Shown one piece after another: positions 34,795 through 53,850 of a DNA stretch of 64,000 nucleotides (positions are counted from its first letter, which is position 1; the number at the start of each line of letters is the position of its first letter). Position numbers and translations under genes: made by a program. Origin of the DNA: Synechococcales cyanobacterium C42_A2020_086 (GTDB lineage Bacteria; Cyanobacteriota; Cyanobacteriia; Elainellales; Elainellaceae); the NCBI GenBank assembly GCA_015272325.1, contig JACYLU010000008.1, forward strand, positions 223,045-287,044. The letters are read 5' to 3'. A model generated the notes under the pieces. That model did not search any database. It saw only the letters and a program-made list of their open reading frames with translations, and was not told the DNA's origin.

Positions 34795-37632
34795 TCAGCC
34801 AACCGGTGACCGCTGCGGCAGACGCACGATAGAAATAGTGACTTCTCCTTCGTTGTCATTTGGAGCGGTATCAAAGAAGAAGGCGTGGAGCGTGGTTGGT
34901 TCTAGCACTTCTAGCGTCAGCGTCTCGTCATAGCCATTTAGACTCGACCACGTTGCTACCACTTCTGTTTCGGTTTTCTGGTTGATCACCTTACCACCCT
35001 GAATCCACAGCAGCACCAAAGGCTCACCCGGAGCATGGGGCGTTGCTCCATAGCTGAAGCTGCCACTCTTGAGCCGCACGAGATGCGTACCGCGCTCTAG
35101 CCGTTTGCTGACGGAAACCTCGTCCTGCAATTTGCGCATCTGCTCCGCATCTAGCAGGTAGCTATTGCGGCGACTATGCACCGTTAGGTTTTTAATCGAG
35201 CAGCGGCTGTGATCCGCTGCAGCAGGTTGCAGGATGGTTGCAGCTGCGGCGGCTGGAGCTATGCTGTCTGTTGGTCGTCGTACCGGCAAGGAGCGAGCGA
35301 GCTTTAGCCATTGTCCATCTGCCGTAACGTAGCCAATTTCCGCAACATAATCGCGATCGGCTTCTGGCAACGGCACATGGTGATCTGTGGCAATATCGTC
35401 GCAGTCGTACTGCTGCATGCTATGAGCTGGCTGATGATCCAGATCAATATCGGTAGCATCGTAGATGCGTAGCTGCAGTTGCTCACCGCCATTTGCTTTG
35501 GCAGTAGCCCGAACCGCCGGCGGCACTTCCCAATAGGCGTAGGCATCCTCGGAACTGCGGGGCGTTAGCACAATCCGGCTAGGCGGCGCGGAGACCTCCT
35601 TATCCTTTAGGAGTTGAGTAGCTGCGGCCACCGCTCCACCAGCAATGGCAACCGCTGGAGCCACCGCCGCTGCTGAAGGGGGGGGCGTCACGCGGATCGA
35701 GTTCGAGCGAGCCAGCTTCAGCCATTGCCCATCGCCGGTGAAGTAGCCTACTTCTGCTAGGTAATCCCGGTCTGGTGCTGGAATCGGTACATGGCAATCC
35801 TGGTCACTTTCGGCACAGTCAAACTGCTGCACGCTAGGCGGCAACGGCTGCTCCGGGCTGCGATCCGTGACATCGTAGAGGCGCAGGGCAAACTGCTGTC
35901 CGCCTTGCTGCTTCAGGGCTGCCCGCTCGGACTCGGAGACCTCCCAGTAGGCATAGGCATCGTTAGCATTGCGGGCCGTCAACACCATCCGGCTGTGGGC
36001 AAGGGGAACTGCCTCTGGACGAGTGGCTGCCGCTACACCTGCCGCCGCTAAAGCAGCTCCTGTCGCCACTCCTGCGGCTTGGGAGGTAACTGGTTCCACC
36101 GTTGGGCAGGCCGGCACCCGCACCGGCAACGAGCGAGCCAAGGGCAGCCAGCGGCTATCAGCCGTGACATATCCCAGCTCTGCGATGTAGTCCCGGTTGT
36201 CTACGGCGATGGGTAGAGGCAGATCTGGCTCAGATTCGCGGCAGTCAAACTGCTTGACGCTATGGGGGATCTGCCGCTCCATGTCGATGTCCGTCACGTC
36301 ATAGAGTCGCAGCGCCAGCTTGCGTCCACCTTGCTCACGTAGTTCTGCCTTTCGCTCCTCGGGCACTTCCCAATAGGCATAGGCATGGCGGCAGTCACGC
36401 GGTGTCAACACAATTCGACTTTCGGGAATAGGCGCGGCTACAGGGGCAACTGGCGGAGGCGGTACCGGAGCTGCTACTGGAGGAGCCACCGTTCTAGCTG
36501 GACTAGAGCGATTGCGCATCAGCCACCACAGCAGACCGCCAAGCAGGGGAATAGCTAGTAACCACAGCCAGCCTGCTCCCCCTCGCTGAGCCACTGGAGC
36601 CGCGGCCGCTTCTCCGGCAGGGGCAGGCACCAAGGCTGTTTCATCTGGGGAGGCTGTCGTCTCGGGGGTTGCTGTCGTATCCGGTGTTGCTGTAGCGTTC
36701 GGTGTTGCTGTGGCGTCAGGGGTTGCCGTCGCGGCGGGTTCAGCCGGGGCTGGAGAAGTTGCCGGAACAGTCGCCGCTGCAACCAGTCCTGGAGTCACCG
36801 TTGCCAGGCCCAAAAATGCCTGCGTTCCTACATCCGGGGTCCCGCGATAGGCATAGCCTCGCGGCTGTGAGAAGGGGTAGCGCGGATCGTCCGGCAGCGT
36901 TTGATGCATGGGGACAATCTTCACCGTCGGCTGGTTCAGCACTTGGTCAGCAATGGCATAGCTGATCCCATCCTGTCCTAGTTCCTGGATAACCAGGGCG
37001 GTATCGTCCTCTGCGACGGTAGTTGTATTGGGTCCCACTTCAAAGGGAGCTGCCTGGAAAACTTCATAATTGCGGAACGCCTGCCGCGTGTCGCTAGTCT
37101 CTGGGCGATCCACAAACCGGATGGGCCCCGGCTGACCGCCAATTTCCGACCAGTCGGTAATCTCGCCGCGGAAAATGCGAGCAAACTGCTCGAAGGTAAT
37201 GTCGCCCTGATAGGGATTGTTTGGACCAACGATAATGGCAATTTTTTCCCGGCGCAGGGGGACTTCCACTAGTCCCTGGGCTTTCTCAGCTTCGGTCAGG
37301 GGACGACCAATGGCTGCCAGCGTAATATCGCCGTTGAGCAGCGCCTGCAACGCCTGATCGGTGCCATTATCTGCCAAGGTCACCGTCGTGCCTGCAAAGC
37401 GCTCTTCATACTGCTGCTTCAGCGTTTCGTTGACGACCGTCATGCTGTGGGAGCCGTCTACTTCGACAGTGGTGCCGCTAGGTACCGAAGCTGGTAGCGG
37501 AAACGCTTGGGGGCTAGGCGATTGTGCCAAAACAGGTTCTGGTTCAAAAACCGTTGGGACCCACTTTGGTCCGGAGGCGAGGGTCAGCACAGCAGCGGCA
37601 ACCCTCAGGATAGTTTTCGTCGGGGGATGCAT
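34795..37632 (-). CDS. PstS-like phosphate-binding domain, membrane segment, three DUF4912 modules and a C-terminal domain
   Basis: The product has 945 residues from ATG 37632; a GTG at 37644 would give 949 (numbers below use the 949 form). Order: signal sequence; PstS-like periplasmic-binding domain (about 52-285, DITFEQFARIFRGEITDWSE, GPIRFVDRPETSDTRQ, LGQDGISYAIADQ); Thr/Pro linker with an ATATPD-type repeat (305-335); one membrane helix (357-376) followed by Arg, so the rest is cytoplasmic; three DUF4912 modules (408-510, 550-652, 688-790), each with AYAYWEV and a closing ARS; and a domain (812-942) identical in kind to the free 131-residue protein next to it. DUF4912 has no known function. 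It is the last gene of the cluster, before a terminator. Confidence 0.85.
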   Translation of the reverse strand: MHPPTKTILRVAAAVLTLASGPKWVPTVFEPEPVLAQSPSPQAFPLPASVPSGTTVEVDGSHSMTVVNETLKQQYEERFAGTTVTLADNGTDQALQALLNGDITLAAIGRPLTEAEKAQGLVEVPLRREKIAIIVGPNNPYQGDITFEQFARIFRGEITDWSEIGGQPGPIRFVDRPETSDTRQAFRNYEVFQAAPFEVGPNTTTVAEDDTALVIQELGQDGISYAIADQVLNQPTVKIVPMHQTLPDDPRYPFSQPRGYAYRGTPDVGTQAFLGLATVTPGLVAAATVPATSPAPAEPAATATPDATATPNATATPDTTATPETTASPDETALVPAPAGEAAAAPVAQRGGAGWLWLLAIPLLGGLLWWLMRNRSSPARTVAPPVAAPVPPPPVAPVAAPIPESRIVLTPRDCRHAYAYWEVPEERKAELREQGGRKLALRLYDVTDIDMERQIPHSVKQFDCRESEPDLPLPIAVDNRDYIAELGYVTADSRWLPLARSLPVRVPACPTVEPVTSQAAGVATGAALAAAGVAAATRPEAVPLAHSRMVLTARNANDAYAYWEVSESERAALKQQGGQQFALRLYDVTDRSPEQPLPPSVQQFDCAESDQDCHVPIPAPDRDYLAEVGYFTGDGQWLKLARSNSIRVTPPPSAAAVAPAVAIAGGAVAAATQLLKDKEVSAPPSRIVLTPRSSEDAYAYWEVPPAVRATAKANGGEQLQLRIYDATDIDLDHQPAHSMQQYDCDDIATDHHVPLPEADRDYVAEIGYVTADGQWLKLARSLPVRRPTDSIAPAAAAATILQPAAADHSRCSIKNLTVHSRRNSYLLDAEQMRKLQDEVSVSKRLERGTHLVRLKSGSFSYGATPHAPGEPLVLLWIQGGKVINQKTETEVVATWSSLNGYDETLTLEVLEPTTLHAFFFDTAPNDNEGEVTISIVRLPQRSPVG

Positions 37633-37730
37633 AGGTATCACCACAAGGTTCTAACGGGGCATGAAATTGACAGCCAAATCAGCGAATGAGTCCCGATCTA
37701 GTCGGAATCTAGACCGATTCAACCAATCCG

Positions 37731-38387: not shown

Positions 38388-41300
38388 CTAAGTAGGAGCG
38401 AACTCCGGCAGCGGCTGAGCAAAAGACTCAATCCGCCAAATCTCCTGGCAGTAGTCGCGAATTGCCCGATCCGACGAGAATTGCCCGATCCGTGCCGTAT
38501 TCAGAATCGACATCCGTGTCCAACGTTCTGAATCTTGATAGACTAGCCCAACTTGGTCCTGACAATCAACGTAGGCAGCGTAATCAGCGAGCAGTTTATA
38601 TTGATCTGGATAGAGCAGCAGGTTAACCAAGGGGCGAAACAGCTCCCTATCGCCTGCCGACAGCGCCCCAGACTCTATTAGATCTATAACTGCCTTCAGG
38701 TCAGCGTTGGACTGGTAATACTCGCTTGGCTGGTAGCCCGCTGCTTGCAGGCTAGCAACTTCCGAAACCGTTAACCCAAACTCAAAGAAATTCTCTGCGC
38801 CCACCGCATCCCGCAGCTCCAGGTTAGACCCATCGGGAGTGCCCATGATCAGAGAGCCGTTCATGGCATAAATCAGGTTGCCAGTGCTGCAGGCCTCCGT
38901 ACCCGCCAGCGAGATATATTCTGCCAGATCCGCTGCCGGATAAATTGTCTGCGCCACTTTAATATTGTAATTGCGAATGAAAACCACCTTTAATCGTCCA
39001 TTCACATCGGGATCAGAGTTGATCACTTGAGCGACCGCATGGATCAGCCGAATCATCAGCTTCGCTGTGAAATAGTCAGGTGCGGCTTTCCCCGCAAAAA
39101 TAAACGTACGTGGCGTCAGGGACAGAGCAGGATTCGCTTTCAGACGACGATATAGCGTCAGGATGTGCAGCACATTCAAATGCTGACGTTTGTACTCGTG
39201 CAGCCGCATCGTATGGACATCAAACAATGAATTGACATCAACTTCGATGCCGTTATGCTGGCGAATATAAGCTGCAAGTGCTTGCTTGTTAGTCTGCTTC
39301 ACCTGCCGCCAGTCCGAGCGAAACTGAGCATCTTCTACAAAGGGTTCCAACTGCCGCAGACGCGATAAATGGGTAATCCAACCATCACCAATGCGGTGGC
39401 AGATCAAGTCTGCTAGTTGTGGATTGATCAGCAGCAAGAAACGCCGTGGGGAAACGCCATTAGTTTTATTGCTGAACTTCTGGGGATATAGCTCGTAGAA
39501 ATCTCGCAACAGCATAGACTGAAGCAGCTGAGTATGCAGTTGAGAAACCCCATTGATACTATGGCTGCCCACGCAGGCCAAATAGGTAGTCCGCACATAA
39601 CGCTCGCCTCGCTCATCAATCAGCGACATCCGCGCGACTCGCTCGGGATCATTCGGATACTGCGACCGCACGTGATCGAGGAAGCGATTGTTGATCTCAA
39701 AGATGATTTCTAGGTGACGCGGCAACAATCGACCAAAGATCTCTAGCGTCCAGCAATCATCTAGGGTTTCTGGCAACAAGCTGTGATTGGTGTAGGCAAA
39801 GCTGCGTTGCGTCACTGCCCAGGCTTGCTCCCAGGGCAACTGGTGCTGATCGAGCAGGAGCCGCATCAGCTCTACAACGGCTAAGGTAGGGTCGGTGTCG
39901 TTGAGCTGAATTGCCATCCGCTCGGGCAGCGTGTCTGGGCGGCCTCCCGCTTGCAGATGCAGCCGCAAGACATCCTGCATCGCGCAGGACACCAGGAAAA
40001 ACTGCTGCTTCAGCCGCTGTTCTTTGCCTTGCTGCTCCACATCCACGGGATAGAGCACCTGACAGAGCTGCTGCGAATCAGCCGTTTTCCACAGTCGCAT
40101 CAGGTTCACCGTGCCTGTGCGGTAGCCGGAGACGGGAGTGTCGTAGGGGATGCCTGTTACTTGCTCAGCGACTAGCCAGCGCACACAGTAGCGATTTTGC
40201 TCATCTAGGTAGGCTTCGCTGTGTCCACCAAAACCAACGGTCACGGCGGCTTCTGGGCGTTCGCGTTCCCAAGGACTGCCATACCGCAACCAGCTACCCG
40301 GGATTTCCACCTGCCAGCCGTCGCGGATGTCTTGATCAAAAATACCGTATTGGTACCGAATACCATAGCCAATAGCCGGCACATTAGCCGTTGCCAGCGA
40401 GTCCAGGTAGCAGGACATCAGCCGCCCCAGCCCCCCCTTGCCCAGCCCTGGTTCTGCTTCCTGTTGCAGCAATTCATCGAGATCCAGTCCCATCTCCTGC
40501 AGCGTTTGCCGAACCGACGTCGAGATGCCTAGATTCAGCAGATGGTTGGCAAGGTGAGGTCCGGGCATGTACTCGGCAGACAGCTCGATCACCAAGCGTG
40601 AGCCAGGCTGAGCGAGAGCAACCTCGGGCAAATCCTGCTGCAAGAGCTGATCGCACACTACCTGCGCCAATGCGGTATAGCGTTCTTGGGGAGTAGCGGT
40701 CTCCACTGTCTTGCCGGAGCTTTGCAGATAGCCGAGAAAAGACTGCTGCAACGATTCAACTCCAGCGGGCGGCACGGGTGGCGGGGTCGCAATGACTGCT
40801 GTCTCTATTGTCTCTGGCAAATCTGTCTTCGGCAAATCTGCTGATTCTGGGAGTTCTGGCACATCGGCGGTGGCTGATTCGATCGCTGGAAGCTCGCCAT
40901 GACTGACCTCCGTTGCGGCGTCTGCGGTCTGTAGAGCGTCTACTTCGGTGTCTACCTCGGTCGCTGCAATTTCCTCTGTTACTTCAGTTGTGTCGGTTGT
41001 GCCCAGCGGTGCCCCAGAGACCGAAGCGACCGGGACAACATCAATAGGGCTGACCTGCAAAACCTCGGTGGCATCTCCCGCTTCGTCTGAAACCTCCTCC
41101 AGCACCGCCTCAATCACCTCGGCTGCTCCGGTGCTCTCAGGATCGAGGGGTGGGGCTAGCTCCTCTGCCGTTACCCAGGTTGCCTCTGCCGTTTCTTCTC
41201 CTGGCTGCATGGCTCTGGGCGTCGCAGCAGGTAAGTCAATCTGTTCTGCCCCGGCAGGAGAGGACGTTGCTGGTGGAGGAGCGGCCGGTGGGGCAGCCCT

Positions 41301-43043
41301 AGACCCCGATTCCCCTGGAGGCACTGGTGCTGGTTGAGCCACACCGAGCTGCCAACGGCGGTTCAGCAGCCAGCGCACCAACCCACCCAGCAGTAGGACT
41401 GGTAGCCCTAGCCCCAACCACAGCGGCACTCGCTTATGGGCACCTCGGCGAGAATCCAACGGGCGAGATGGGGCAGCAGCATCAGGCAGGCTCACTGGAG
41501 CCAACACCTCGGGGGCGGTGACAATACCCGGCTCGACCACAGGAATCGGCTGAGCAACGGGAGCCTCGGCAGGGAGGAGAGCAATTTTTCCGGGCGGCAC
41601 CGGCTTAATGACTCGCGATGCAGTCGGTTCTCGCTTAGGTGTTGGTTCAGCTTGAGAGTCTGGAGCGGATGTAGCAGCGGGAACCTCAACGGCCGCAGCA
41701 TCGGCATGGGTGGCGGCGGGTTGGGTCTGGTTCTCGGGCAGGGGGTTCACCATGGAAGGCTGAACCTTGCGGCTGCCCTCGCGATCGGGAGCAGTGGTGT
41801 CAGCGGTCGTTGGTTCGGTTACCTGGTCCGCCGCGTCAACTCTGTCCGTCTGCACTGGCTCTGCTGCCATCGGCTCGCTAATGTGGTCCGGAGCGGCTGG
41901 TGGGACCGGCTGGTGGTCTTGAGGTGGGAGTTGCAGCTCGCGAGGTTCAACCGTTGTTGGGGCGATTGCTGTCTCTGCGGCAGGCAATGGTTCCGAGGTG
42001 AGGGAAGCTGCCATCGGAGCAGCCAGGGCCGCAACAATAGCCTGAAGCTCTGCCCTCTTGGCCGTAGCAATGGCGGTTTGCCCAACGGGTGCGATCGCAA
42101 GGCTAAGAAACGACTGGGCGGCGGAATCGCTGGCGGCTTTGAAGGCATAGCTCTGCTGCTGCACATACGGATAGCGGGCATCTTCCGGCAGCGTTTCTTG
42201 CAGAACGGCAATCTTAACCAAGCGAACGGCAGCATCCTCGGGAAGTTGATCGGCAATCGCATAGCTAATGCCGTCGCTGCCCAGCTCGCGAATCACGGCT
42301 GCTGTATCATCGGTGTCTAGCTGCACCCGATTGGCGAACCGCAGGCGAAGGGACTGCGCCGCCGAGGGCAAAATGCCATACTGACTCAAGGCCAGACGAG
42401 TTTCGCTGGTGTCTGGGCGATCGATCACTCGAATTGGTCCTGCTGCGCCTCCCACGTCAGACCAGTCTGTAATAGTGCCCTGAAAAATCTCGGCCAGTTG
42501 TTCAACTGTCAGGGCACCCCGAAAGGGATTGTCGCGCCCAATTAAAATCGCAATTTTTTCCTGCGCAATCGGAATTTCGATCAGCCCTTGTGCTTTTTCC
42601 TGCGGCGTCAGCGAACGGCTAATGGCAGCCAGATCGATTTCTTCATTGAGTAATGCCTCTAGGGCAGCTTCGGTGCCACGAGCGGTAACGGTGACCTTGG
42701 TATCAGGGAAGCGCGACTCATAGCGCTGTTTTAGCTGCTCGTTGATCCGCTGCATCTCGCGGGAGCCGTCAATTCGCAGCGTGTTTTCTGAATGCGGTGC
42801 TTCGGTAGCGCCCCCTACAGAAGCAGCACTGGATGGAGTAGCACTACGCCCCTCAATGGTAATCAGGGAGATGAGATCGACCGGAGGATTTGCTGCAGGA
42901 CTAGCCGCATACATTTCACGGTTGAGGTGAGCCATAACCACCGGAGCTGCTGCCCCGGCCGGAGTAAAGGCAAGAAGTGGCACTTGGGCAATGGTCAACC
43001 AGAACACCCATTTCAGGAAAGAGGAAGTGCTTTTCCGCAGCAT
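38388..43043 (-). CDS. PstS-like phosphate-binding domain fused through a membrane helix to a glycogen phosphorylase domain lacking the PLP lysine
   Basis: The protein has 1551 residues: signal/anchor helix (about 8-34); PstS-like binding domain (88-315, LTVEQLAEIFQGTITDWSD, GPIRVIDRPDTSETRLAL); Pro/Ala linker; one membrane helix (541-560) between basic flanks; long acidic linker (600-750); and a GT35 glycogen phosphorylase domain (about 763-1551). The last is recognised by GLGRLMSCYLDSLATANVPA, YGIRYQYGIFDQ, TNHSLLPETLD, KFSNKTNGVSPRRFL and HEYKRQ. Key residues of phosphorylase (rabbit numbering) are changed: PLP Lys680 is Ile1391 (STGNLIYAMNG), Lys568 is Met1279, Ser674/Gly675 are Cys1385/Ser1386, Asn133 is Lys869, His341 is Asp1051. 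His377, Arg569 and Lys574 equivalents remain. Classical PLP catalysis is not expected. It is first in a three-gene cluster. Confidence 0.93.
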   Translation of the reverse strand: MLRKSTSSFLKWVFWLTIAQVPLLAFTPAGAAAPVVMAHLNREMYAASPAANPPVDLISLITIEGRSATPSSAASVGGATEAPHSENTLRIDGSREMQRINEQLKQRYESRFPDTKVTVTARGTEAALEALLNEEIDLAAISRSLTPQEKAQGLIEIPIAQEKIAILIGRDNPFRGALTVEQLAEIFQGTITDWSDVGGAAGPIRVIDRPDTSETRLALSQYGILPSAAQSLRLRFANRVQLDTDDTAAVIRELGSDGISYAIADQLPEDAAVRLVKIAVLQETLPEDARYPYVQQQSYAFKAASDSAAQSFLSLAIAPVGQTAIATAKRAELQAIVAALAAPMAASLTSEPLPAAETAIAPTTVEPRELQLPPQDHQPVPPAAPDHISEPMAAEPVQTDRVDAADQVTEPTTADTTAPDREGSRKVQPSMVNPLPENQTQPAATHADAAAVEVPAATSAPDSQAEPTPKREPTASRVIKPVPPGKIALLPAEAPVAQPIPVVEPGIVTAPEVLAPVSLPDAAAPSRPLDSRRGAHKRVPLWLGLGLPVLLLGGLVRWLLNRRWQLGVAQPAPVPPGESGSRAAPPAAPPPATSSPAGAEQIDLPAATPRAMQPGEETAEATWVTAEELAPPLDPESTGAAEVIEAVLEEVSDEAGDATEVLQVSPIDVVPVASVSGAPLGTTDTTEVTEEIAATEVDTEVDALQTADAATEVSHGELPAIESATADVPELPESADLPKTDLPETIETAVIATPPPVPPAGVESLQQSFLGYLQSSGKTVETATPQERYTALAQVVCDQLLQQDLPEVALAQPGSRLVIELSAEYMPGPHLANHLLNLGISTSVRQTLQEMGLDLDELLQQEAEPGLGKGGLGRLMSCYLDSLATANVPAIGYGIRYQYGIFDQDIRDGWQVEIPGSWLRYGSPWERERPEAAVTVGFGGHSEAYLDEQNRYCVRWLVAEQVTGIPYDTPVSGYRTGTVNLMRLWKTADSQQLCQVLYPVDVEQQGKEQRLKQQFFLVSCAMQDVLRLHLQAGGRPDTLPERMAIQLNDTDPTLAVVELMRLLLDQHQLPWEQAWAVTQRSFAYTNHSLLPETLDDCWTLEIFGRLLPRHLEIIFEINNRFLDHVRSQYPNDPERVARMSLIDERGERYVRTTYLACVGSHSINGVSQLHTQLLQSMLLRDFYELYPQKFSNKTNGVSPRRFLLLINPQLADLICHRIGDGWITHLSRLRQLEPFVEDAQFRSDWRQVKQTNKQALAAYIRQHNGIEVDVNSLFDVHTMRLHEYKRQHLNVLHILTLYRRLKANPALSLTPRTFIFAGKAAPDYFTAKLMIRLIHAVAQVINSDPDVNGRLKVVFIRNYNIKVAQTIYPAADLAEYISLAGTEACSTGNLIYAMNGSLIMGTPDGSNLELRDAVGAENFFEFGLTVSEVASLQAAGYQPSEYYQSNADLKAVIDLIESGALSAGDRELFRPLVNLLLYPDQYKLLADYAAYVDCQDQVGLVYQDSERWTRMSILNTARIGQFSSDRAIRDYCQEIWRIESFAQPLPEFAPT

Positions 43044-44591: not shown

Positions 44592-46721
44592 CTAGGCGGT
44601 AGGCGATAGGCGGACGAAGTCTGCTGCGGTTAATGGAGTAGTCACCCCCACCAGTTCTGCCAGCAGGACCTGCCCAAACTGAATCCGCGTCGAGGTGCTA
44701 GTTTGCACGAGCTGCAGTTGGTTGAAGTCCAGCGTCCCCACCAGCCCAATCCGGTCTCTGCCCAGTTCAAAATCGGTAATGGTGTCCGCTCCTTCGTTGT
44801 AGACCAGGGCATAGGTATCGGCTCCAGCACCGCCTGTCAAGCGATCGGCTCCGGCACCGCCCCAGAGCAGATCATCCCCATCGCCACCCACGAGCTGATC
44901 GCGGCCCGCTTCGCCATAGAGCGCGTCGTTGCCGCTGCCGCCCACCAACTGATCATCACCTGTTCCGCCGTAGAGCCGATCGTCGTCGCCGCCCGCTGTT
45001 GCCTGATCATTGCCAGCACCCGCCAGAATCAGGTCCATTCCGTTCCCCGTTTGGATCCGATCGTTGCCACCCCGCCCCAGAATCAGACTATTAAAATCTT
45101 CAACCGAAGACAGCACATCCGCCGCATCGCTGCCGCGAATCACTCGGGCATCGGCAGGAGCCGACAACACATCCAGGAAAATGGCGCTAGGAACGCCGTA
45201 GTTGCCCGCGGCATCAACGCTCTCCACAAACAGAGTATGGCGACCCGGAGCTAGATTGCTGGTGTCTACTGCCCCCACGAGCACTTCTGTGGTACTGTCG
45301 TATTTGCCATCTGCCACCGTCAGACTGTAGATCGGGATATCCGGCGTCCAGGAGGGGGCATTGACCGTGTAGCGAGCACCAGCAATTGGGCGCGGCTGCT
45401 TTTCGGCCTCTGAACCAGGACGGTTATTAGCAGCGTAGCGCGTAGCGTCAGCTGTGATGGTCAGCACTACCGAATTGGTAATTCCGGCAATTGCCTGGTT
45501 CTCGCTCAGGCTGAGGTTGAGGCTTTCGGGTCCAGCTGCCTGTTGGTAGGGACGATGAGCCGCCTTAGCTGCATACATCAAAGCCGACAACATCTGGGGT
45601 GCCGTGGTTTGTTCAAAGGTGGTGCTTGGCTCCAGGGGTTGGCTACCCAGTCGGGCGGTGTAGCTGGCAACCCGAAAATTTTTATAGACCCAGTCTGCTG
45701 GCGTCCCTGAGACCAACCCAGTACGGCTGGCTGGCTGCACTGTGTAGGCTGTGCCATCTGCCCGCTTCATGAACCCGCCCAGCTTTAATCCCAACGTGTG
45801 TAAACCTGCCGCATCAGGAGCCGTCGTTTCTGTCCAGTGCCAGGGGTAAAGCAGTGCATTGCCCTCGCTTAAGAGATGCAAGAACACACCCGCTCTGTCT
45901 TGGGCTAGCGGCACGTCGTCCGTGGAGGGTTGGGGCGCAAAACTATCCCGTACAAAACTATCCCGTAAATAGTCTCGCAGCGCCTGAGTCTCCGGCTCCG
46001 AGAAGGGAGCTGATCCGGCATAAACCGGAGAGGCTGGATCGCTACTCGCGCCCACGGTGCCCCATTGAACGTCAAAATTGCGATTGAGATTGACGCCATA
46101 GCTGGGAAAGGGAGCAGCAGTCGAGCCGATTGGTGGAGTGGGGTTGGTGTTTTTTGACCATGGCGTTCCCTGCTCAGACTGTCTGCGCCCGTCTGGATTG
46201 ACGATGGGCAGCAAGCGAATATCCCGGTAGTCGAGTAGCCACGTTGCATCGGCATCCACACCATATCCGGCGACGAGCAGCTCGGCAAAGCGAGCGACGA
46301 TTTCGGTTGTGGCATAGGCTCCGCCTTGGCTACCTGCCTGTACCAACAGCACCGGCTTTGCGGGGACCTGAGGGGCTACCTGTTCCGGGAGAGAGGGCTG
46401 GAGAACGAAGCGATTGGGTAAGCGACGAGTCAGCCGCAGCGCGTAAAGATCAAATCCGGCGGCTCCGCCCGGTGTCAGCTTGTCGTAGCTGTCGCCAATG
46501 TCGGTCCAGGTTGCCAAGTCCGGATTTTGAGCCGCCAGCCGAGCTAAATCGCGGTAGGTCGCGTCTAGAGTACGATAGCTAGGCTCAGCAGCGGAACTGC
46601 CATCTGAGGCAGGGGGCAGTTGGAGAGCTAGGCTAGAATCAGCTCTGCTAGGGGCGTCTGGGTGTGTCGCAAGGGAAGCGACCGCATCTAGAGAGGACGC
46701 AGCAATGACGGGTGTACTCAC
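44592..46721 (-). CDS. RTX-repeat protein with a degenerate M14 carboxypeptidase-like domain
   Basis: The 709-residue protein has an M14-like domain (about 47-395), a beta-sandwich-like stretch (400-515) and a C-terminal series of calcium-binding RTX nonapeptides (about 548-636, GGTGDDQLVGGSGNDALYG and relatives). RTX tails point to type I secretion; no N-terminal signal peptide is seen. The M14 domain keeps NPDGRRQ, the substrate-binding NLNRNF (Arg214) and one zinc His (His282, FLHLLSEGNALLYPW). But where M14 enzymes have H-x-x-E, this reads SQGGAYATTE, and the catalytic Glu position reads YTARLG. It is probably not an active zinc peptidase. Confidence 0.85.
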   Translation of the reverse strand: MSTPVIAASSLDAVASLATHPDAPSRADSSLALQLPPASDGSSAAEPSYRTLDATYRDLARLAAQNPDLATWTDIGDSYDKLTPGGAAGFDLYALRLTRRLPNRFVLQPSLPEQVAPQVPAKPVLLVQAGSQGGAYATTEIVARFAELLVAGYGVDADATWLLDYRDIRLLPIVNPDGRRQSEQGTPWSKNTNPTPPIGSTAAPFPSYGVNLNRNFDVQWGTVGASSDPASPVYAGSAPFSEPETQALRDYLRDSFVRDSFAPQPSTDDVPLAQDRAGVFLHLLSEGNALLYPWHWTETTAPDAAGLHTLGLKLGGFMKRADGTAYTVQPASRTGLVSGTPADWVYKNFRVASYTARLGSQPLEPSTTFEQTTAPQMLSALMYAAKAAHRPYQQAAGPESLNLSLSENQAIAGITNSVVLTITADATRYAANNRPGSEAEKQPRPIAGARYTVNAPSWTPDIPIYSLTVADGKYDSTTEVLVGAVDTSNLAPGRHTLFVESVDAAGNYGVPSAIFLDVLSAPADARVIRGSDAADVLSSVEDFNSLILGRGGNDRIQTGNGMDLILAGAGNDQATAGGDDDRLYGGTGDDQLVGGSGNDALYGEAGRDQLVGGDGDDLLWGGAGADRLTGGAGADTYALVYNEGADTITDFELGRDRIGLVGTLDFNQLQLVQTSTSTRIQFGQVLLAELVGVTTPLTAADFVRLSPTA

Positions 46722-50251: not shown

Positions 50252-50935
50252 ATGGCTACCCACTCGTCCAAGATGTCATCCCAGGCATTATCAAAAGCCG
50301 CGTCCAATCCTGCGGGAATGCGTCGCCAGCCCCGGCAAGCTCGCAGCCAAGAGCGGGTTAATCACATTCTGGATGTGGCAGAGCAGCTTTTTATCGCCGA
50401 TGGGTATGCGGCAACGACGACAAATGCGATCGCGACTCGTGCCAATGTGCCGATCGGGTCGCTCTACCAGTTTTTTCCAGATAAAGCCGCCATTTTGCAG
50501 GCGTTGGCCCGACGCTATGCCGAACGGCTGCACCAGCAATTTATTGAACTGCATCTCACGGAAATGGCGACGCTGCCGCTGGCGGGCTATGTGGACCTGC
50601 TGATCGACACCACCGACCAATTTTTCAGCGAGCATCCCGGCTACCACGCCATTTTCATGCAGGTAGAAGGCACGATGCCCGAGCTAGAGTCGCTGGAGGC
50701 AGCGGTCGATGCTCAGTACATTCAAGACTTGGCAGGCTTCTTGTCGCGGACCTATCCGGGATTGTCGCCTGAGGACTATGAGATGATTGCCTTTGTGATT
50801 GTGAAAGCGATCGGGACGCTGCTGTGGCTGTCGCTCAGTCAAGACGCAGCGTTTCGGCAGCGCCTAGTCCGCGAAACAAAGCGCCTGATGCTGGCGTATC
50901 TGCAAAGTTACTTTCCCACAGGTGCAGACCAATGA
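50252..50935 (+). CDS. TetR/AcrR-family transcriptional regulator
   Basis: From ATG 50252 the product is 227 residues. The DNA-binding helices are RVNHILDVAEQLFIADGY and ATTTNAIATRANVPIGSLYQ with FFPDKAAIL. The C-terminal helical domain ends LAYLQSYFPTGADQ. The open frame reaches 50123 but would overlap the operators. Its stop overlaps the ATG of the PlsY-PEP-synthase-like fusion (ATGA), so the two form an operon. Confidence 0.92.
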   Translation: MATHSSKMSSQALSKAASNPAGMRRQPRQARSQERVNHILDVAEQLFIADGYAATTTNAIATRANVPIGSLYQFFPDKAAILQALARRYAERLHQQFIELHLTEMATLPLAGYVDLLIDTTDQFFSEHPGYHAIFMQVEGTMPELESLEAAVDAQYIQDLAGFLSRTYPGLSPEDYEMIAFVIVKAIGTLLWLSLSQDAAFRQRLVRETKRLMLAYLQSYFPTGADQ

Positions 50936-53850
50936 CGCTAACGCAGGTTTTGGGCGTTCTGCTGATTTTTGTTTTCTGTCCGCTGCTGGGTGGCTTGCCG
51001 CTGATTCGCTGGATCACCTACGTTGGCAGCGGGCGACGGCTAGACCAGATGGGCACAGGCAATGTCAGTGTCTCGGCGGCGTTTTATCATGGCGGGCGGT
51101 GGATCGGGCTGCTAGCGGTGCTGTCAGAGGCGTTGAAAGGCATTGCGGCGGTGCTGCTGGCCCGCTATTGCTTCCCGGTGGGGTCGGCTTGGGAGATTGT
51201 GGCGCTGATGGCGCTGGTGATGGGGCGCTACTGGTTCGCTAAAGGGGCGGGCACCACGAATGTGGTTTGGGGCTATGTTGTGCATGACCCGATTACGGCG
51301 GGGCTGGTCTTTCTGATCGGTATGTTGGGCTTTACGCTGCTGCGGGAACGGCGAACTGGCAAACTGGGGGTGCTGGTGCTGCTGGTGCTGATCACGGCGC
51401 TGCGTTATCCCCAGTCGGGAGAGCGAATTATGGCAACGATGGCGCTGGCGCTGCTCATGGCATGGATTTACCAGAAAATTCCCGATGACCTAGACTTACC
51501 AGTGGACGGTTCACAGCAGGACTCCCGCACCATGTTTCGTTTCTTTCAAGGCAATCGGGCACTGCGCTCGCTAGAGCAACCGCTAGACCCGCAGCAGGTT
51601 GGGGCAAAGGCGGCCACACTGGCTCAACTCTACCGCTGGGGCTACCCGATTCCGCCGGGCTGGGTACTGCCGCCAGGGGATGATCCGGCTCCGCTGCTGG
51701 AAACGCTCGATCCATCCCCCGAGGCTCCGCTGGTGGTGCGCTCCTCTGCAATTGGTGAAGATGGCGCTACGGCGTCGGCAGCGGGTCAGTATGAATCGCT
51801 GCTGGATATTACCAGTCGGCCGGCCCTAGAGCAGGCGATTCTGCGCTGTCAGGCATCCTACAGTTTGCCCCATGCGGTGCGCTACCGGCAGGATCGCGGA
51901 CTAGGCGAGAGCGGCATGGCGGTGCTCGTGCAGCGGCAGGTGCAGGGCGTCTTTTCGGGGGTGGCTTTCAGCCGCGATCCGATAGCGCGTCAGGGCGATG
52001 CGGTGGTTGTGGAGGCGCTGCCCGGCATGGCGTCGCCGGTGGTGTCGGGACGAGTCACGCCGGAGCGGTATTGCGTCTGGATCACGGAAGCCCTGGATTG
52101 GAGCAGTGATTGGCGGCTGCCGGAGTCGGTTGAGCTGCCCTTAGACGGCAATGGCGATGTGCCGACGCGCTTGATCCAGCAGGTTGCCTATTTGGCGCGG
52201 CATCTAGAAGCCCGATTCCACGGCATTCCTCAAGACATTGAATGGAGCTACGACGGGCAACAGCTCTGGCTGCTACAGGCTCGCCCGATCACAACGCTGC
52301 TGCCGATCTGGACGCGCAAAATTGCGGCTGAAGTGATTCCCGGCTACATCCACCCCTTGACCTGGTCAATTAATCGTCCCCTGACCTGCGGCGTCTGGGG
52401 CGATCTGTTTACGCTGGTGCTAGGTGAACGAGCAAGGGGTCTCGATTTCAATCAAACCGCGACGCTGCATCGCTCGGCCGCTTACTTCAATGCCTCGCTG
52501 CTGGGGGATCTGTTTCGCCGCATGGGGTTGCCGCCGGAAAGTCTGGAGTTCCTGACGAGGGGCGCTAAATTCAGCAAACCACCCCTTAGCGCTACCCTGC
52601 GCAATATTCCTGGATTGTGGCGCTTAGCGCAACGAGAACTGTGGCTAGAAACCGACTTTGCCCGCGACCAGGAGCAGGTGTTTCAGCCGGTATTGGCAAC
52701 CCTGTCCCAGCAATCCCTTGCAGACCTGACTCCCGAAGAGTTGCTGAGCCGCATTCATCGCATCCTGGATCGGCTGCAGCGAGCCACGTACTACAGCATC
52801 CTCGCGCCCTTGAGTGCAGCCTTGCGAGCGGCGATACTGCGGGTAGACCAATCAACCTTAGACAATAGTGCCCTGCCTGAGGTGGCCGCTGTACGAGCCT
52901 TGCAGCAGTTGGCGAACGAGCTGCGCCCGAGTCTGCCTTCCCTAGACGCCATCCCTCCCGAGCCAGCCTGGGCCATGCTGACGACCAACCTCGAGGGAAA
53001 AGTTATTCTGCCGCGATTTCAGCAATTTCTCGACGACTATGGCTACCTCAGCGAAGTTGGGACCGATATTGCCGTTCCCACCTGGAAAGAAGATCCGCAT
53101 CCGGTGCAAGATCTGCTGATCCAGTTTTTGGTGCAGCCGCCAACGCCGCCAACCTCCACTCCAGCCGTGAGCACCTGGAAGCAGCGCCAAGCTCAGCGCC
53201 GCCTCACCCTCAAAGGACGAGTGACCGAGGTCTACAGCAAATTGTTGGCAGAACTGCGCTGGAGTGTGGTGGCTCTAGAACAGCGGTGGCTGCAAGCGGG
53301 TATCCTGACTCAGCCGGGGGATATTTTCTTTCTCACCTTCGCGGAGATCCAGCAGCAGATTGCAGACCCCGACGCTATCCGGCCAACCCTCGCGCCTCTC
53401 ATTGCCCAACGTCGCGATCAGCTTGACCAGGACCGCCAGATAACGCCGCCGCTGCTAGTCTACGGCAACGCGCCCCTGACAACAACCCTCAGCTCAGTCA
53501 TGCCAAACGGTGCGAACAACCTGCGCGGCATTCCTGCTAGCCCTGGCCAAGCCGAAGGACGAGTGCTGATTTTGCGCCAACTGCGGGCAGTCCCCGATCT
53601 CGACCGGCAAACCATTCTAGTCGTACCCTACACGGATTCGGGGTGGGCACCCCTGCTGGCGCGAGCTGGCGGCCTGATTGCCGAGGTGGGGGGGCAGTTG
53701 TCCCACGGGGCGATTGTGGCCCGAGAATACGGCATCCCGGCGGTAATGGATCTGCACCACGCCAGCGACTATTTGCGGGATGGGCAGCGCGTCCGTATTG
53801 ATGGGGCAACGGGGTTAGTCGAGGTGTTGGAGAATGGGGATCATTCCTAA
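50932..53850 (+). CDS. PlsY-like acyltransferase domain fused to PEP-synthase-type phosphotransfer domains
   Basis: The 972-residue protein has a membrane domain (1-185, about five helices) like PlsY glycerol-3-phosphate acyltransferase: GSGRRLDQMGTGNVSVSAAF near 32-51 in place of GSGNPGATN, and GRYWFAKGAGTTNV near 98-111 in place of the GGKG motif. It is followed by an ATP-grasp domain of pyruvate phosphate dikinase type (about 215-465, VGAKAATLAQL, VVRSSAIGEDGATASAAG, FSGVAFSRDP, LLQARPIT). After a helical middle comes the phospho-histidine domain (GGQLSHGAIVAREYGIP, His925). The PEP-binding TIM barrel is missing, as in rifampicin phosphotransferase. PlsY motifs are divergent, so acyl transfer is not certain. 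It is coupled to tetR. Confidence 0.88.
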   Translation: MTLTQVLGVLLIFVFCPLLGGLPLIRWITYVGSGRRLDQMGTGNVSVSAAFYHGGRWIGLLAVLSEALKGIAAVLLARYCFPVGSAWEIVALMALVMGRYWFAKGAGTTNVVWGYVVHDPITAGLVFLIGMLGFTLLRERRTGKLGVLVLLVLITALRYPQSGERIMATMALALLMAWIYQKIPDDLDLPVDGSQQDSRTMFRFFQGNRALRSLEQPLDPQQVGAKAATLAQLYRWGYPIPPGWVLPPGDDPAPLLETLDPSPEAPLVVRSSAIGEDGATASAAGQYESLLDITSRPALEQAILRCQASYSLPHAVRYRQDRGLGESGMAVLVQRQVQGVFSGVAFSRDPIARQGDAVVVEALPGMASPVVSGRVTPERYCVWITEALDWSSDWRLPESVELPLDGNGDVPTRLIQQVAYLARHLEARFHGIPQDIEWSYDGQQLWLLQARPITTLLPIWTRKIAAEVIPGYIHPLTWSINRPLTCGVWGDLFTLVLGERARGLDFNQTATLHRSAAYFNASLLGDLFRRMGLPPESLEFLTRGAKFSKPPLSATLRNIPGLWRLAQRELWLETDFARDQEQVFQPVLATLSQQSLADLTPEELLSRIHRILDRLQRATYYSILAPLSAALRAAILRVDQSTLDNSALPEVAAVRALQQLANELRPSLPSLDAIPPEPAWAMLTTNLEGKVILPRFQQFLDDYGYLSEVGTDIAVPTWKEDPHPVQDLLIQFLVQPPTPPTSTPAVSTWKQRQAQRRLTLKGRVTEVYSKLLAELRWSVVALEQRWLQAGILTQPGDIFFLTFAEIQQQIADPDAIRPTLAPLIAQRRDQLDQDRQITPPLLVYGNAPLTTTLSSVMPNGANNLRGIPASPGQAEGRVLILRQLRAVPDLDRQTILVVPYTDSGWAPLLARAGGLIAEVGGQLSHGAIVAREYGIPAVMDLHHASDYLRDGQRVRIDGATGLVEVLENGDHS

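Follow-up and report, generated by a model that had tools for sequence, protein, structure and literature searches.

Glycogen phosphorylase is among the classic examples of allosteric enzymes. The 64,000-nucleotide stretch of cyanobacterial DNA analysed here (the window) encodes a protein in which a domain of this family, devoid of its cofactor lysine, shares a single chain with a PBP domain and a predicted membrane helix. What role can a phosphorylase fold play in such a protein? An earlier, sequence-only reading had interpreted it as a sensor or scaffold and had found a link between phosphate outside the cell and glycogen suggestive. The pseudoenzyme character, the predicted membrane layout and the preference for a sensor or scaffold over a GT35 enzyme were upheld in our analysis, while phosphate as the ligand came out weaker.

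A PBP domain, a predicted membrane helix and a phosphorylase-like domain in one chain

The gene (protein P0001) occupies positions 38388..43043. The protein had been read correctly, and only its strand needed correction: the plus-strand translation of this interval contains many stops, and the frame runs from 43043 to 38388 on the minus strand as a 1551-aa open reading frame without internal stop. All features of the fusion gene given below lie on this strand. A putative signal peptide, judged by eye, covers residues ~1-33 (42945..43043); the N-terminus of P0001 stays below the hydropathy threshold, and an N-terminal hydrophobic segment is found in 26 of the 34 listed family members. The PBP domain (residues 82-314, 42102..42800) matches PF12849 (PBP_like_2, E 3.5e-35) and the solved chain 9l8j (E 9.4e-47). 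Hydropathy places a single hydrophobic segment between the two domains, the predicted membrane helix at residues 538-556 (41376..41432), and such a segment precedes the phosphorylase domain in 32/34 listed members.

The pseudo-glycogen-phosphorylase domain extends over residues 763-1551 (38391..40757). It matches PF00343 (E 1.5e-286; 952.8 bits, cut-off 27) and TIGR02093 (990.9 bits, cut-off 552.9), and its closest solved chain by sequence is an alpha-1,4-glucan phosphorylase, 9wvu (E 1.2e-293). The Pfam Phosphorylase match spans residues 848-1538 and the full profile (1-713). Compared by pieces with the three GT35 enzymes of its own genome, the domain is 50-59% identical. The proposed fusion of PBP, membrane helix and GT35 domain is thus borne out by the reading frame, Pfam and hydropathy, with a layout that is predicted: the PBP half would be exported and the phosphorylase half would stay in the cytosol.

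The lysine-less domains form a single clade

In a homology search, the best 120 of 7677 matches were listed, and 34 of them (query included) carry the pseudo-domain. All 34 are without the PLP lysine, K568, H341 and N133 (rabbit glycogen phosphorylase numbering), whereas the other 86 proteins keep all four. Of the 35 listed matches longer than 900 aa, all but P0109, an ordinary enzyme of 901 aa, belong to these 34. The PBP part is absent or cut in three of the 34 family members (P0007, P0009 and P0024). TPRs were found in five of six relatives scanned; in P0004, P0019, P0049 and P0099 they lie C-terminal to the predicted helix, in the presumed cytosolic part, and in the fifth, P0012, hydropathy detected no middle helix.

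The listed matches were then combined with genome loci and duplicates removed, giving 159 distinct GT35 domains, 114 with the lysine and 45 without. In a FastTree phylogeny of these 159 domains, the 45 lysine-less ones form a single clade with a support of 1.0. In the window's order, represented by one family, it was present in 12 of 36 genomes, and an evenly drawn sample of 388 genomes from the class contained at least 16 carriers (the same 12 and four more) from two families. Among the best 80 named loci of 577 relatives, 11 are pseudo-phosphorylases, all in cyanobacterial records; of 70 other phosphorylase rows in this set, 69 fit the lysine pattern and one was unmatched by it. Databases label the relatives "starch phosphorylase" or "glycogen phosphorylase", names that the lysine test contradicts. 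The combination of fusion and lysine loss is therefore recurrent in cyanobacteria, and none of the 45 pseudo-domains has kept the lysine.

Loss of most of the PLP/Pi site under purifying selection

In GT35 phosphorylases, an invariant lysine is described as forming the Schiff base with PLP (PMC2837607). Its equivalent, K680 of the rabbit enzyme, is replaced in P0001 by Ile1391 in the motif STGNLIY (38871..38873). This position is Lys in 114/114 enzymes, and Ile (35), Met (9) or Ala (1) in the 45 pseudo-domains. Met1279 (39207..39209) stands for K568, which is Lys in all 114 enzymes and in none of the pseudo-domains. Similarly, Lys869 (40437..40439) corresponds to N133, Asn in every enzyme and Lys or Arg in 45/45 pseudo-domains, and Asp1051 (39891..39893) corresponds to H341, His in every enzyme and Asp in 45/45 pseudo-domains. 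Cys1385/Ser1386 occupy the positions of S674/G675. A sequence check of P0001 found each of the active-site losses listed in the earlier reading. Further losses affect R569 (lost in 42/45, kept in 3) and G675 (lost in 37/45, kept in 8). Remnants of the site persist at K574 (43/45), G134 (44/45), G135 (41/45) and T676 (38/45). Without PLP, the domain should be unable to carry out phosphorolysis.

At 243 alignment sites, at least 98% of the enzymes have the same residue. At 166 of them the enzyme residue is retained in at least 90% of the pseudo-domains, and at 16 it is altered in at least 90%. H341D, T378S, E385D and A456S are new residues fixed in 45/45. Of eight ortholog pairs, one was saturated; the other seven gave dN/dS ratios of 0.068-0.113 (dS >2 in two of them), and no stops interrupt the frames of the 14 genes used. 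The low dN/dS indicates a maintained protein and not a relic. The loss of most of the PLP/Pi site in a domain under purifying selection fits a sensor or scaffold better than a GT35 enzyme.

Loss of the tower helix and alteration of the cap

The sequence-only reading had missed a deletion in the same domain. Mapped via human liver phosphorylase in rabbit-like numbering, residues 986-993 (40065..40088) mark the site where positions 248-255 and 257-271 are missing. The 250' loop is given as 248-260 and tower helix alpha-7 as 261-276 (PMC10116597), and the gap takes in this loop and the greater part of the helix. The stretch between the motifs MRLW and VLYP measures 15-18 aa in 45/45 pseudo-domains against 39 aa in 114/114 enzymes, so that lysine loss and tower deletion coincide in 45/45 pseudo-domains and in 0/114 enzymes. 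The tower helix is described as a conserved dimer-interface element of phosphorylases (PMC2837607, PMC10116597) and, beside the cap, as one of the two sites where the subunits meet (PMC10116597). At cap positions 37, 42 and 45, the share of hydrophobic residues drops from 100, 81 and 96% in the enzymes to 2, 11 and 9% in the pseudo-domains. Hydrophobicity is retained at positions 35 and 46 and rises from 5 to 69% at position 43; the cap has thus been altered, not erased. Lacking the tower and with its cap altered, the pseudo-phosphorylase domain is predicted to be a monomer. The known GlgP enzymes are all described as PLP-dependent and active as dimers, and dimerisation as stabilising the PLP bond (PMC2837607); seen in this way, losing PLP and losing the tower fit each other.

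Retention of glucan-facing residues

The residues taken here as glucan contacts are mostly intact; of E88, Y280, R292, D339, H377, E382, N484 and E672, the first seven are kept in 45/45 pseudo-domains and E672 in 44/45. Likewise, of the presumed glycogen storage-site residues, R398, N407 and R409 are kept in 45/45 and E433 in 43/45; position 404 of this site is Leu in 16/45. The cleft itself has changed at H341 (Asp in 45/45) and at Y573 (His or Ser in 12/45). T378 is Ser in all 45 pseudo-domains, a replacement that retains the hydroxyl. In barley Pho1, the side chain of the residue that we map to T378 is described as bonding the acceptor (PMC5391026).

A cluster with a sister receptor and an orphan protein

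The fusion gene belongs to a gene cluster, which the sequence-only reading had also missed. Downstream lies an orphan gene (P0122; 37731..38126, minus strand) for a 131-aa predicted beta-sandwich protein (AF2 pLDDT 86) with 282 matches, for which no Pfam family was matched. A P0122-like gene follows the fusion gene in 9/15 loci. The next gene (34795..37644, minus strand) encodes, by domain scan and hydropathy, a sister receptor made of a PBP domain, a predicted membrane helix, three DUF4912 repeats and a P0122-like domain. A sister PBP-TM receptor follows the fusion gene in 7/15 loci, six of them with DUF4912, a domain predicted to be FN3-like and named by a single paper in the open-licence literature. 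From residue 2 onwards, the P0259 protein, which carries the species name Thermocoleostomius sinensis, matches the sister receptor of genome G029 exactly.

Several observations extend this picture. The P0122 family is a highly conserved cyanobacterial orphan that doubles as the C-terminal domain of PBP-DUF4912 receptors. The genome of the window holds three PBP proteins with DUF4912 repeats: the sister receptor at 34795-37644 (-), L082:894-4568 (-) and L083:1301-3409 (-). In genome G035, the PBP-TM protein encoded by L081:13197-16079 (+) has a long linker and, as its sole C-terminal domain, a P0122-like one; it represents a third type of output on this PBP-TM chassis.

Enzymes of glycogen or sugar-phosphate metabolism occur near the fusion gene in 5/15 loci from three genera (a raw count), namely phosphoketolase, AckA, transaldolase, PGI, GlgP or a debranching enzyme. 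No glycogen enzyme was found among the scanned neighbours in the window outside the cluster. The cluster can be linked to glycogen catabolism in part. Elsewhere in the window, the gene at 50824-53850 (+) combines PPDK_N and PEP-utilizer domains with a membrane domain of the glycerol-3-phosphate acyltransferase type (PF02660); in genome G010, a homologue with 64% identity (L077:11809-14769) is found immediately upstream of the gene for the pseudo-phosphorylase. At 44592-46721 (-) there is an M14 zinc carboxypeptidase with RTX calcium-binding repeats.

A possible glycogen-binding receptor and alternative explanations

We lean, with a confidence just short of even, towards the PBP-TM-pseudophosphorylase being a one-component transmembrane receptor or scaffold that binds alpha-glucan inside the cell and a small ligand outside. 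The cytosolic domain, predicted to be monomeric and incapable of phosphorolysis, would use the kept acceptor cleft and storage-site residues to grip alpha-1,4-glucan chains. Binding of the outside ligand may then alter how the domain holds glycogen, or glycogen enzymes assembled at this place, and nutrient state would in this way be tied to glycogen breakdown. The receptor would act together with its sister receptor. A more specific version is correspondingly more tentative: a monomeric glycogen-chain reader at the cytosolic membrane face, gated by the outside nutrient-binding domain and docking with the DUF4912 receptor and the orphan beta-sandwich protein. It is equally speculative, as part of the same version, that shedding the cofactor and the dimer helix freed the fold for a role as receptor output.

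Pseudoenzymes often regulate their active cousins, and it is conceivable, if rather unlikely, that the pseudo-domain directly binds a glycogen enzyme, be it active GlgP or a different one, and thereby recruits it to the membrane or restrains it there, with no need for glycogen binding. Three intact GlgP genes in the same genome, and a GlgP gene ~5 kb downstream of the fusion gene in G035, would provide partners. An ordinary heterodimer with GlgP is unlikely, however, given the deleted tower helix and the three cap positions that turned polar, and such a partner would not need the fixed glucan-facing residues.

As to the outside ligand, the solved chains most similar in sequence to the PBP domain include Sll0540 (9l8j) and bacterial phosphate-binding proteins. 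A strict orthophosphate receptor, forming part of the Pi-starvation response, would agree with these relatives and with the oxyanion loop, in which R209, S213 and T215 are invariant in 31/31 fusions checked. The loop in P0001, DRPDTSETR (residues 208-216, 42396..42422), departs nonetheless from the S-G-T that we take to be a PstS trait and that is seen in 9l8j, 4gd5 and 1twy. The Gly, present at the same spot in Sll0540, 4gd5, 1twy and three stand-alone PBPs of these genomes, is replaced in 31/31 fusions (Asp 30, Glu 1). In a DUF4912 set of 120 rows, 100 have a complete pocket, and 98 of these also show the resulting S[D/E]T. The domain falls far below the NCBIfam PstS cut-offs (TIGR02136, 86.5 against 206.6 bits; TIGR00975, 25.8 against 205 bits), and a Pho-box consensus scored no higher than in shuffled sequence in any of 14 upstream stretches, 12 of which belong to fusion genes. 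Synechocystis GlgP(2) is reported to be more abundant in low phosphate (PMC3600050), which would suit such a response. All in all, a dedicated phosphate receptor seems improbable. Of the suggested link between outside phosphate and glycogen, the PstS-type domain stands, and phosphate itself is a possible ligand. In two genomes of the same genus, G005 (L078, by Pfam scan) and G008 (L079, by similarity), two stand-alone PBP_like_2 genes adjoin the fusion gene.

Related GT-B enzymes act without PLP, and the fixation of four new residues together with K/R at N133, as well as the retention of E672 and K574, could be read as the making of a new PLP-free glucan activity that relies on the fixed Asp1051, Lys/Arg869 and the kept Glu1383. 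The replacement of K568 by M/I/T/N, a variable R569 and a K680 that is mostly Ile look like hydrophobic filling and not like a new catalytic set, and we regard this activity as very doubtful. Finally, a decaying duplicate or an assembly artefact, to which one might assign the G246 relative (L073 7256-11437), where one in-frame stop splits the gene in that assembly, is contradicted by the low dN/dS, the stop-free frames and the clade-specific fixed residues, and an assembly error by the recurrence of the architecture in many assemblies, including the single-contig genomes G029 (5.8 Mb) and G030 (5.5 Mb), which makes it a negligible explanation.

Relation to known proteins

Compared to GT35 GlgP/MalP enzymes (PF00343, TIGR02093), the pseudo-domain shares the full profile and most of the presumed glucan contacts, but it is without the PLP lysine, K568 and the tower helix, has an altered cap and is fused to a PBP and a predicted helix. 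Its PBP is of the same sequence family as PstS/PBP_like_2 proteins such as Sll0540, with R..S.T of the oxyanion loop in common, but is predicted to be anchored and not free, with SGT changed to S[D/E]T. The N-terminal PBP with S[D/E]T is shared with the cyanobacterial PBP-TM-DUF4912 proteins, one of which sits two genes downstream and which databases call "DUF4912 domain-containing protein"; their cytosolic part is DUF4912, whereas that of the fusion is a pseudo-phosphorylase. PBP-type sensor kinases also have the PBP outside and the output inside in a single chain, an arrangement that the fusion repeats with a pseudo-phosphorylase, and no kinase, as its output. In the open-licence literature there is apparently no description of a glycogen-phosphorylase pseudoenzyme or of its fusion to a PBP, so the earlier statement that this design was undescribed appears to hold there.

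The joint absence of lysine and tower in a fold under strong selection amounts to an evolutionary experiment, and it fits the idea that the dimer holds PLP. The presence of relatives in named strains, Thermocoleostomius sinensis and Leptolyngbya sp. FACHB-8, makes the proposal testable. If the domain does read glycogen, cyanobacteria would possess a direct connection, independent of kinases, between an external nutrient and their carbon store.
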